38,567 bases of DNA, taken from Verrucomicrobiota bacterium. GTDB taxonomy: Bacteria; Verrucomicrobiota; Verrucomicrobiia; Chthoniobacterales; UBA10450. Position numbers and translations under genes: made by a program. The notes beneath the pieces were generated by a model, which did no database searches, had not been told where the DNA came from, and was given only the letters and a program-made list of their open reading frames with translations. This document shows positions 36,185 through 38,567 of this stretch, piece after piece; the stretch's first letter is position 1; each line of letters opens with the position of its first letter. The stretch spans positions 1-38,567 of the forward strand of contig QHPU01000067.1 in NCBI GenBank assembly GCA_003219175.1, written 5' to 3'.

Positions 36185-36189
36185 CACGA

Positions 36190-36274
36190 CGGTTGAGGGT
36201 TTGTTGGTTGAGGGTTGAGGGACGCGAAGTCGTTGAACGTTGTCGGCTGAAGCATGAGAGCTTAAAACGTTCGG
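36190..36274. repeat. TTGAGGGTTG low-complexity repeat (left side of the S23-type gene)
   Basis: A run built from GGTTGAGGGTTTGTTGGTTG and GAGGGTTGAGGG at about 36190-36220. An inverted, slightly diverged copy lies at 36635-36660, so the four-helix-bundle gene sits between inverted copies. Confidence 0.6.
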
Positions 36275-36628
36275 ATGTTTAACTTTGAAAAATTGGATGT
36301 TTGGAATGAAGCGATCGCGTCTGCCGACCTGATTTATTCAATAAGCAGGAGCTTTCCCGATGACGAGCGATTCGGACTGACGATGCAAATGCGACGTGCG
36401 GCGGTTTCGATTTCATCGAATCTGGCCGAAGGTAGTTCAACAGTTTCGCGTGCCGATTTCGCTCGATTTGTGGAGATCGCGACCGCGTCGCTGCTTGAAG
36501 TCGTGTCGCAAACGATCATCGGAAAACGACAGGGATTCATCAGCGAAAGCAATTATGCTGCTGTCTACGCGGCAGCGGTAAAACAGAGCAAAATGCGCAG
36601 CGGTCTCCGGAAATCACTAGGCACATAG
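36275..36628 (+). CDS. Four-helix-bundle protein (23S rRNA intervening-sequence / S23 family)
   Basis: 117-aa small helical protein. The family pattern is clear: FEKLDVWNEAIASADLIYSI, FGLTMQMRRAAVSISSNLAE, GSSTVSRADFARFVEIATAS and LLEVVSQTIIGKRQGFIS. First found in rRNA intervening sequences, members are widespread, often near mobile DNA, and the function is unknown. Here it lies outside any rRNA gene, between inverted TTGAGGG repeats. Confidence 0.92.
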   Translation: MFNFEKLDVWNEAIASADLIYSISRSFPDDERFGLTMQMRRAAVSISSNLAEGSSTVSRADFARFVEIATASLLEVVSQTIIGKRQGFISESNYAAVYAAAVKQSKMRSGLRKSLGT

Positions 36629-36634
36629 TCGGCG

Positions 36635-36745
36635 CCCTCAACCCTCAACAAACAACCCCCAACTGCGTTCATTCTCTCAACCCTCAACCAACAACCCTCA
36701 ACTGCCTTTGCCCTCTGTCCCCCGCCGTCTCTCAACCCTCAACCG
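36635..36745. repeat. CAACCCTCAAC repeat cluster
   Basis: Three copies of a C/A-rich unit at 36635-36660, 36675-36705 and 36731-36745. The middle one is identical over about 30 nt to 37338-37367 and similar for another ~14 nt. The two therefore bracket the THEP1 gene as direct repeats. Confidence 0.75.
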
Positions 36746-37266
36746 TTTTGGCCGCTGGTCAAAACTTCCGCCAATTCCGAGAACAGCCTTTCTCGATTAT
36801 CCGGGCGAACTTCAATTAAGGTCACATCATGACGTGACTTGATCGCGTCCGTGAACGGCAGAGGCCGCGCAAAGATCGTGGCCAATAGCGGAGCCTTATT
36901 ATCGAGCGCCTCGTTCACTGTGTCCCGAAAAACTGGCGATCGGATTTCCATCGGACCAATTTCGTCGATCACGACAAACTGTCCCCTTCGCACCGCTTCG
37001 CCCACCGCCCTGACGCCAACCGCTTCCAGCGCGGAAAGATCAAGCCGGTATTTCCCGAGACGCACCGAGCTTTCGATCTCGACATGGGCAAAAATAACTT
37101 CGGCGCCGTCGAGGGTCACGATCTTGAAGCCAACGCGCATGCCGTGGTCGCGAATCTCCTCGGTGTAAAACCCACCGGCCGCTTGTGCGAGATGACTAAC
37201 CAGACGTTTGATTAGGGTTGTCTTCCCGCAGCCCGGCCGACCGGTGAGCAAAATTTTCTGGTTCAC
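36739..37266 (-). CDS. Nucleoside-triphosphatase, THEP1 family
   Basis: 175-aa P-loop NTPase of the NTPase_1 family. Walker A is LLTGRPGCGKTT (residues 6-17) and Walker B is GQFVVIDEIGPMEI; GGFYTEEIRDHGMRVGFKIV is the family's second hallmark. The enzymes hydrolyse nucleoside triphosphates slowly; the physiological role is unsettled. Start is GTG at 37266 with GAAGGG about 9 nt upstream. Its 3' end merges into the CAACCCTCAAC repeat. Confidence 0.93.
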   Translation of the reverse strand: MNQKILLTGRPGCGKTTLIKRLVSHLAQAAGGFYTEEIRDHGMRVGFKIVTLDGAEVIFAHVEIESSVRLGKYRLDLSALEAVGVRAVGEAVRRGQFVVIDEIGPMEIRSPVFRDTVNEALDNKAPLLATIFARPLPFTDAIKSRHDVTLIEVRPDNRERLFSELAEVLTSGQNG

Positions 37267-37336
37267 GTTGATTCGCCCTTCGACATTTCCCTTAGCTCTT
37301 AGCCCTTCCCTCTTCGCTGTTCGCTCTTTGCCAATC

Positions 37337-37367
37337 CCTCAACCCTCAACCAACAACCCTCAACTGC
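37337..37367. repeat. CAACCCTCAAC repeat, right copy
   Basis: Direct repeat of 36675-36705 on the other side of the THEP1 gene. Confidence 0.75.
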
Positions 37368-37664
37368 TTTACCCTCTGGCCAAAATCTCCTTCCCCACCC
37401 GCCAGCGATTAACTACGATTGCGCCAGTGCCAAGTACCTTATCCCGATTCCCACGAATCGACCACAGGCGGCAGCCTGCCCGCGCCGCTTTGACCGTCGT
37501 CCCGAAGCCGGAGAAGAGCCTTCGCGTCGCCGAAAAACCGCCTTCTTTCGCCAGCATCGTCACCCAGCGGCCGCAGAAACTTCTCGATCGGGTCCGCTGG
37601 CATCTGCGCGTTAGACGCTACAGCATCCGAACCGAGCAAGCCTACTTCGATTGGATCCGCCGTT

Positions 37665-37949
37665 TCACCCCGTGAGATTATCTAAGCGGTGACGAAGCAC
37701 TACGTCTATATCCTGCGCTCGTTGAGTGATCAGCGGTTTTATGTTGGACTAACTAACAAGCTTCCGGGCCGCGTAGAGGCTCATAATGCCGGCCTCGTCA
37801 TGTCCACAAGAAAACGAGCGCCCCTCGAATTGATATACTGGGAAGGCTGCCTCAATCGAAGCGACGCTGCACAGCGCGAGAAGTATCTCAAGACCGCGTG
37901 GGGAAAGCGTTATTTGAAGACACGGTTGCGACGCTATCTCACGGGGTGA
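37665..37949 (+). mobile_element. Minimal GIY-YIG element inserted in the integron integrase
   Basis: Insert of 283 bp (37667-37949) right after the TTC codon of WIRRF. Its ends with one or two flanking bases form inverted repeats: TTCACCCCGTGAGAT (37664-37678) and ATCTCACGGGGTGAA (37936-37950), a perfect 15-bp match. The right repeat contains the stop codon of the GIY-YIG gene, and only 22 bp precede that gene's GTG, so the element is essentially one ORF. Excision restores RRF-ILFHNKRHP. No target duplication is visible. Confidence 0.7.
37689..37949 (+). CDS. Small GIY-YIG endonuclease-domain protein
   Basis: 86-aa single-domain GIY-YIG nuclease. GIY and YIG positions read HYVYILRSLSDQRFYVGLTN. 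A conserved Arg (GRVEAHNAG) and the metal-binding Glu in AAQREKYLKTAWGKRYLK are present, so activity is plausible. It belongs to the small UvrC-N-like group common in environmental bacteria, usually called an excinuclease-like protein with no proven role. GTG start at 37689; the C-terminus YLTG and the stop lie in the right inverted repeat. It fills an insert in intI, which suggests a homing-type or transposon-like role here. Confidence 0.9.
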   Translation: MTKHYVYILRSLSDQRFYVGLTNKLPGRVEAHNAGLVMSTRKRAPLELIYWEGCLNRSDAAQREKYLKTAWGKRYLKTRLRRYLTG

Positions 37950-38567
37950 ATCCTTTTCCACAACAAACGTCATCCAGACCAGATGGGCGAAGAAGAAATC
38001 AGCGCCTTCCTCAGCCATCTCGCGATTAATCGCAATGTATCGGCCTCGACCCAGAATCAGGCGTTCAGCGCTCTGCTTTTTCTTTATCAGCAACTGCTCG
38101 ACCGCAAACTCGATTTCATTACCGGCGTTGAGCGCGTTCGCCGCCCCGCTCGGGTTCCCATCGTTTTCAGCAAAGCGGAAGCCCGCGCTGTCCTCGCTAA
38201 TCTCAAAGGCGATTATGCCCTCATGGCTGAGCTGCTTTACGGCAGCGGTCTTCGTGTTTCGGAAGCCGCGCGGCTGCGGGTGAAGGACATCGACTTTGGT
38301 TACAACCGCCTCACAATTCACGAAAGTAAAGGGCAGCAATCGCGCATCACTATTTTACCGGCGAGCCTAAAACGACCTCTCCAAAAGCATCTTACGCGCG
38401 TACGTGAATTGCATCGCCAGGATGTCGCCCGCGGCGGTGGTGCCGTTTATCTGCGTGATCGGAAGTACGTCAATGCAGCGCGCTCCTGGCCATGGCAATA
38501 CGTCTTCCCCGCCGCGAAACTCAGCGCTGACCCGCGCAGCGGCGAGACGCGCCGTCATCACATTTCG

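Follow-up and report, generated by a model that had tools for sequence, protein, structure and literature searches.

The window, by which we mean the whole stretch of 38,567 nucleotides analysed here, ends inside an integron integrase gene that is interrupted by a short inserted unit (Table 1). The integrase frame breaks off after the residues WIRRF and restarts behind the unit as ILFHNKRHPDQMG, remaining open to the contig end, and its right part matches the Pfam families Phage_int_SAM_4 and Phage_integrase. The two arms bounding the unit are complementary at 15 of 15 positions, extend 1-3 bp into host-like sequence, and form the sole inverted repeat of at least 12 nt reported in the segment 37400-38200. 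The first-pass annotation of this DNA had described a 283-bp unit inside the integrase, carrying a GIY-YIG gene and a perfect 15-bp inverted repeat that includes the nuclease stop codon, and its coordinates were confirmed. As the length of the unit is not a multiple of three and its left end places a stop codon three codons into the integrase frame (TTC ACC CCG TGA), the integrase gene is broken.

Table 1. Features of the interrupted integron integrase gene, in window coordinates
Feature	Position	Strand	Basis
5' fragment of the integron integrase, ending in WIRRF	37538..37666	+	tblastn against an intact relative: 67% identity over residues 79-119
Left terminal inverted repeat TTCACCCCGTGAGAT	37664..37678	+	perfect 15-bp inverted repeat; relatives with the same ends
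Inserted 283-bp unit ACCCC...GGGGTGA	37667..37949	+	integrase alignment interrupted between 37666 and 37950; relatives uninterrupted at this codon
GIY-YIG nuclease ORF, 86 aa, GTG start, stop codon within the right end	37689..37949	+	ORF list, Pfam, hallmark residues
Right terminal inverted repeat ATCTCACGGGGTGAA, coding for C-terminal YLTG and the stop	37936..37950	+	inverted-repeat search; codon freezing
3' part of the integron integrase gene, ended by the contig end	37950..38567	+	tblastn residues 120-327, 69% identity; Pfam

With up to two mismatches allowed, the 13-bp motif common to the ends of related units occurs at two places in the window, which are the two ends of the unit; shuffled sequences contained 0.32 matches on average and reached two in 4 of 100 cases. 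The left arm in the window differs from the commonest form of this motif at one base. The genome holds one close copy of the unit, as well as a second integrase-like gene (G000:C13, 54% identity, a 348-aa open frame without a stop). Because of this second gene, and because the contig ends inside the broken one, cassette freezing does not follow, which weakens the earlier suggestion that loss of the integrase would freeze the cassette array. Elsewhere in the window (36188-37390), inverted copies of CTCAACCCTCAAC, a motif with six occurrences in the window and none in shuffles, flank a 23S rRNA intervening-sequence-type gene (PF05635, 36275-36628); this gene and its repeats may represent a second small mobile unit.

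Analysis of the encoded protein with Pfam revealed a match to the GIY-YIG family PF01541 (E-value 1.8e-15, 57.4 bits against a cut-off of 22.6) and no other domain. Motif patterns show that the hallmark Tyr, Tyr, Arg, and Glu residues are kept in 19, 20, 20, and 20 of 20 elements, respectively, and among solved structures only a UPF0213 protein (1ywl) matches in sequence. The nuclease gene is the only ORF of at least 60 aa confined to the unit, in which the ORF list and Pfam gave no DDE, HUH, serine, or tyrosine transposase, and hence not the HUH Y1 enzyme of a REPtron. The hallmark residues, the match to 1ywl, and the lack of any other such ORF make the nuclease the best candidate for the mover, and cutting, joining, and mobilization in trans may all be its work. 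A structured RNA or a group I or group II intron was also considered and rejected, the RNA fold of the unit being ordinary (z = -0.77) and only 22 bp lying outside the ORF.

At six loci (L042, L044, L046, L047, L050, and L051), a complete tRNA gene is directly followed by a more distant GIY-YIG gene (about 35-45% identity). In five of the six, L051 being the exception, a partial repeat of the 3' part of the tRNA comes next, as judged by eye. Another GIY-YIG branch (L036, L038, L039, L040, L041, and L097) is found beside REP-like palindromes such as CCGCGTAAAAGGCTTCGCCTCACGCGG, and in L038 and L097 the nuclease gene lies in an integrase gene missing a middle part.

The unit is present at many other loci and its ends are conserved there, two of the three points on which the first-pass annotation had let its proposal of a mobile unit stand or fall. 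Among 26 loci found by protein similarity alone, with ends scored at up to two mismatches, 19 share these 13-bp ends: ACCCCGTGAGATA precedes the nuclease gene and TATCTCACGGGGT closes it, correctly ordered and spaced, and both ends are exact in 10. A looser recount gives 20 of 26 by adding L023, whose ends belong to flanking palindromes. Paired ends are absent from 7 of the 26 loci. In L018, L021, and L023, nuclease genes lie beside or between short palindromes carrying such ends; in L011 a short palindrome lies downstream of the nuclease gene; L024 and L028 retain one end and L027 neither. The end-bearing loci come from Verrucomicrobiota (records labelled Verrucomicrobia, Opitutales, and others), Bacteroidota (L015, Bacteroidetes), and Patescibacteria (L025).

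Overall, we count 27 different units of full length (271-286 bp; one duplicate contig was dropped, and loci fetched under two names were counted once by hand), all 27 of which encode the same nuclease family. The left flank is mostly TTCA or TTTA and the right flank TAAA or TGAA. The extended ends thus usually follow the pattern TTYA..../....TRAA and read TTYACCCCGTGAGATA...TATCTCACGGGGTRAA, and the TAA or TGA of the right end is the stop codon of the nuclease. Terminal inverted repeats bound the unit at many sites, as is expected of a transposon, and a chance inverted repeat is ruled out by the shared ends, the 27 full-length units, the shuffles, and the codon freezing described below. Two copies per genome were seen in a few genomes only (for example G088, G092, and G029), one close copy being usual. 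The pattern of the full-length unit was found in none of the viral contigs searched, the nuclease had no match in plasmids, and phages yielded one match at 41% identity.

Other nucleases have inverted ends of their own near the same place: at 6 of 20 nuclease loci of the order sample, such arms score at least 14, whereas clear inverted ends are absent at the other 14. These alternative arms, such as CCCCGTTAGAGATA and ACCCTGTTAGAGTT, belong to the GIY-YIG loci L203-L207 and L214, and enzyme-specific ends are expected if enzyme and ends co-evolve.

The right end is kept at the codon level. In the last four codons of the nuclease gene (Y-L-T-G), the commonest codon is used in 0.91 of the sequences, compared with a mean of 0.50 and a maximum of 0.80 elsewhere, in a comparison of 20 elements over 43 other conserved columns where one or two indel-shifted rows slightly lower the codon figures. 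The 20 elements are those of the 27 whose frame fits the motif pattern, leaving out L015, L016, L025, L035, L059, L062, and L083. Judged by this codon usage, the right end is under selection as DNA.

Empty alleles, which the first-pass annotation had named as supporting evidence, were found at the same positions for the integrase, metF, and phosphorylase sites. The metF region is present in 54 of 83 genomes of the same family; in the 30 of 56 metF places fetched, the unit lies directly before the start codon in 3 and is absent in 27. Upstream of the phosphorylase gene (30 of 37 places fetched), it is present in 3 and absent in 25, two loci being unplaceable (L165 and L174). Uninterrupted integrases could be aligned at all five insertion positions in that gene. 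Where comparable, the junctions show a target of 3-4 bases resembling TCA, TTCA, YAAA, or TGAA, and after insertion most copies have TTCA on the left side and TRAA (TAAA or TGAA) on the right, irrespective of which of them the target resembled. No regular target duplication was seen among the copies compared, a direct TGAA repeat being found in L019 and L022 only. This flank pattern differs from ordinary target duplication and may reflect a hairpin intermediate, in which the ends would template each other and yield the mirror flanks TTCA/TRAA.

Alignment of the loci shows that the integrase was entered at five positions (a slash marks the insertion point): WIRRF/I in the window, QNQAF/N in L007 and L016, after LRV in L005 and L008, DG/KG in L060, and LLGH/KDV (position 378) in L033, L035, L068, and L083 and, by eye, in L006, a deleted gene. 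Compared with random positions, these five have a higher mean amino-acid conservation (0.86 vs 0.74, P = 0.017; P = 0.023 for nucleotides). Insertions in YhcG/DUF1016 genes (L019, L020, L022, L177, and L178, with YhcG assigned by Pfam) likewise recur at the same nucleotide, so that recurrent insertion at conserved sites, a mark of homing genes, is seen both there and at integrase position 378. Read-through of the integrase across the element was considered and set aside; the frame is open in L033 and stops in L035, L068, and L083.

Integrase sequence adjoins the nuclease in 6 of the 26 protein-found loci (L005, L006, L007, L008, L011, and L016). In an even draw of 384 class genomes, a close nuclease is present in 8, of which 4 have it inside an integrase and 1 beside an integrase tail, while the remaining 3 comprise two insertions in YhcG/DUF1016 and one in a BRO-N-domain gene that seems DinD-like. 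Finding 4 of 8 in an integrase by even insertion would have a probability of 6e-13, or 4e-10 with fivefold integrase sequence, assuming a 1.2-kb integrase in 4 Mb and with a survival bias for dispensable genes possible. Further targets are the stop codon of a 2-hydroxyacid dehydrogenase gene and the sites upstream of metF and of the phosphorylase gene. Just downstream of the unit in L025 there is a weak match to RNase P RNA (from 3309; 50.6 bits, gathering score 100), and the segment AGGAAAGTCCG beside it resembles the RNase P core; on this resemblance, the unit is likely inserted in rnpB.

Integron cassette or attC recombination was considered as an insertion route, given that L081 adjoins a GTTAGGC-like site and that one Aeromonas integron has a GIY-YIG gene among its cassettes (PMC10609294), and was dropped on inspection. 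In L074 (1250-1700), an intact integrase end is followed by a truncated nuclease, the right end, and the integrase tail once more, an arrangement that resembles the trace of repair after insertion.

The nuclease is co-directional with the interrupted or neighboring gene at 14 of 14 distinct oriented sites (6e-5 if random), three of which depend on weaker gene calls (the short frame of L003/L004, the L015 frame lacking a Pfam match, and rnpB in L025). With 22 bp ahead of the nuclease start codon in the window, and thus little room for a promoter, the unit would rely on the transcription and translation of the host gene, which fits the shared direction, and selection on expression is its simplest cause. 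The interrupted frame of the Bacteroidetes copy (L015, 2089-2808), for which Pfam gave no match, ends in QRNY, a motif of REP-associated transposases.

Palindromes of 32-102 bp that have the same ends and no nuclease were found in four genomes (G104, G105, G106, and G087), and one 43.8-kb viral contig contains four mini-elements of 32-40 bp (L093, L094, and L113), three of which match the exact pattern. Non-autonomous palindromes sharing the ends of a nuclease-bearing unit, as in REPtrons, are therefore present. G106 has 15 exact end motifs. When the interiors of 17 mini-elements were compared, only two L018 copies were alike, and none of the 17 resembles the nuclease gene, and deleted nuclease genes were rejected as their source; G106 palindromes of 35-37 bp, which are outside this set, include several that are alike by eye. 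The five loci L190-L194 of G104 have palindromes of 62-102 bp with near-identical ends and unrelated interiors, three being flanked by TAT/ATA instead of TTCA/TGAA. An exact end pair about 100 bp apart lies at 626-728 of G259:C83, in a class genome lacking a close nuclease at E 1e-22. At L018 (2764-3351), a nuclease gene lies between two near-identical 98-bp palindromes, directly after an HNH/AP2 homing-type gene.

The end motif occurs in 20 of 384 class genomes and 15 of 118 order genomes, compared with 8 and 2 for a reversed control motif, which had no match in a set of 12 genomes. In the order sample, the nuclease is found at E 1e-8 in 10 of the 15 genomes with the motif vs 37 of the 103 without (P = 0.045); for the exact motif, the figures are 4 of 15 genomes with the nuclease at E 1e-20 vs 11 of the 103 others (P = 0.10). 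Three genomes (G579, G572, and G517) have 3-6 motifs each and no nuclease match. The co-occurrence in the order sample is weak, and the imperfect link may stem in part from other end types. For the class genomes, the co-occurrence (6 of 8 nuclease-positive genomes vs 14 of 376) was not counted as support, the element itself containing the motif.

In a tree of 30 elements, the window copy joins L003 and L004 (100/96), apart from the other integrase copies. As the 3' end of a different reading frame is where L003 and L004 are found, this grouping points to movement between targets. Copies at metF, at the dehydrogenase stop codon, and in YhcG cluster largely by site, and the integrase copies are scattered. 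The 12 integrase rows (L081 included) require 5 label changes, at least 2 of them forced by well-supported branches, compared with a mean of 9.6 after shuffling, and 2 of 500 shuffles gave a value as low as 5. L025, a long branch, was left out of this tree, the second one built. From the grouping by site and the spread of the integrase copies, some same-site copies were probably inherited or homed, and the integrase, on the evidence of the tree, was entered more than once. Copies at the same position in several species may be inherited.

Taken together, sequence comparison gives solid support to a discrete unit with conserved ends, relatives in unrelated sites, and empty alleles, and the unit is very likely a mobile element. 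The conserved ends elsewhere and the empty alleles make a self-contained mobile unit that disrupted the integrase, as originally proposed, the best reading. We lean towards a minimal transposon that is autonomous; its nuclease is predicted to cleave the ends of the unit and short TGAA/TTCA-like targets. The nuclease would mobilize the unit itself, acting, like TnpA-REP, on ends folded as a hairpin. As hydrolytic nucleases, GIY-YIG enzymes are not known to ligate, so host repair would presumably seal the junctions.

Several of these results would also be compatible with a free-standing homing endonuclease gene, whose product would cut conserved sites in the integron integrase and a few further genes and which would be copied in from a homologous donor by repair; the inverted ends would then have no role of their own or act as a signal for termination or translation. 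GIY-YIG is a classic homing domain, the copy number is low, the insertions in the integrase (position 378) and in YhcG/DUF1016 recur at the same nucleotide, and conservation at the five integrase positions exceeds that at random ones (P about 0.02). However, homing does not need terminal inverted repeats, yet these are kept at the synonymous level and on nuclease-less palindromes; close relatives are found in different genes, and the unit is too small for an intron or intein. We therefore regard homing as unlikely, while giving it some weight.

It is improbable that the ends form a palindromic repeat family moved by another enzyme, such as a REP-type HUH transposase, or by host functions, with the GIY-YIG gene as a passenger. 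Such a family would account for the repeat-rich genomes without a detected nuclease (G579, G572, and G517), for the genomes that have the nuclease and lack the exact motif, for the unrelated interiors of the mini-elements, and for the L018 nuclease between two 98-bp minis, but one nuclease family occurs in all 27 full-length units, some relatives have ends of their own, the right end is fused to nuclease codons, and an unsystematic look noticed no other enzyme common to the loci. UPF0213/YhbQ-type GIY-YIG proteins are common stand-alone genes, the only structure match is the UPF0213 protein 1ywl, and the assembly is of draft quality. It was therefore also weighed whether a repair-type nuclease gene is fixed here beside an inverted repeat that arose by chance or resembles a terminator, or whether the assembly is at fault. 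Because the ends recur in independent assemblies and in different phyla, empty alleles exist, and the integrase is hit at five positions, we consider such an explanation highly implausible.

The transposon that we favor shares with classical IS elements and MITEs the terminal inverted repeats around one gene, the insertion into genes, and the miniature forms. Unlike IS elements, it has no DDE, HUH, serine, or tyrosine transposase, and even small IS elements are more than twice as long; a regular target duplication was not seen among the copies compared. With GIY-YIG homing genes (I-TevI, Seg type) it has in common the catalytic domain, the entry into conserved protein genes, and recurrent insertion at one position; it differs in its conserved terminal inverted repeats, nuclease-less derivatives, and varied target genes, and in having no intron, intein, or second Pfam domain in the window protein. 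Rickettsia palindromic elements are short palindromes inserted into protein and RNA genes, as are the present palindromes, and we know of no nuclease partner for them. REPtrons (TnpA-REP with REP/REPIN palindromes; PMC8266576) likewise combine a small nuclease gene with cognate palindromes, non-autonomous palindromes, and co-evolution of enzyme and repeats. In contrast to REPtrons, the enzyme here is GIY-YIG and not HUH, the palindrome consists of the unit's own ends and C-terminal codons, and the copy number is usually low.

GIY-YIG genes in conserved genes of CPR bacteria are also known from rRNA-gene insertions, in which GIY-YIG is a minority beside LAGLIDADG and which were judged to lie outside spread by homing (PMC11270868); the term 'inverted repeat' is absent from the main text of that article. 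Their non-homing appearance agrees with a transposon-like reading of the present unit. Among the matches listed from the open-access literature (titles and abstract openings), no description of a prokaryotic GIY-YIG element with inverted ends was found.

IS elements, REPtrons, and introns each have a defining feature that the unit lacks, and its fit to homing genes is poor. That it stands for a whole new class of mobile DNA is a tentative proposal that we hold to be nearly evenly balanced: autonomous transposons of less than 300 bp, with a single-domain GIY-YIG transposase of about 86 residues, a right repeat formed by C-terminal codons, enzyme-matched and diversifying ends, hairpins moved in trans, and a preference for the integron integrase. 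No smaller autonomous transposable element would then be known. Should this hold, DNA transposition would require no more than a nuclease of fewer than 90 residues; this would set a new lower size limit for autonomous elements and add a catalytic class to prokaryotic transposition. The palindromic repeats of uncultured bacteria would gain a candidate mover, and genes named putative endonuclease or excinuclease would become mobile-element candidates. For the integrons of these bacteria, it would represent a recurrent route by which their integrases are switched off.
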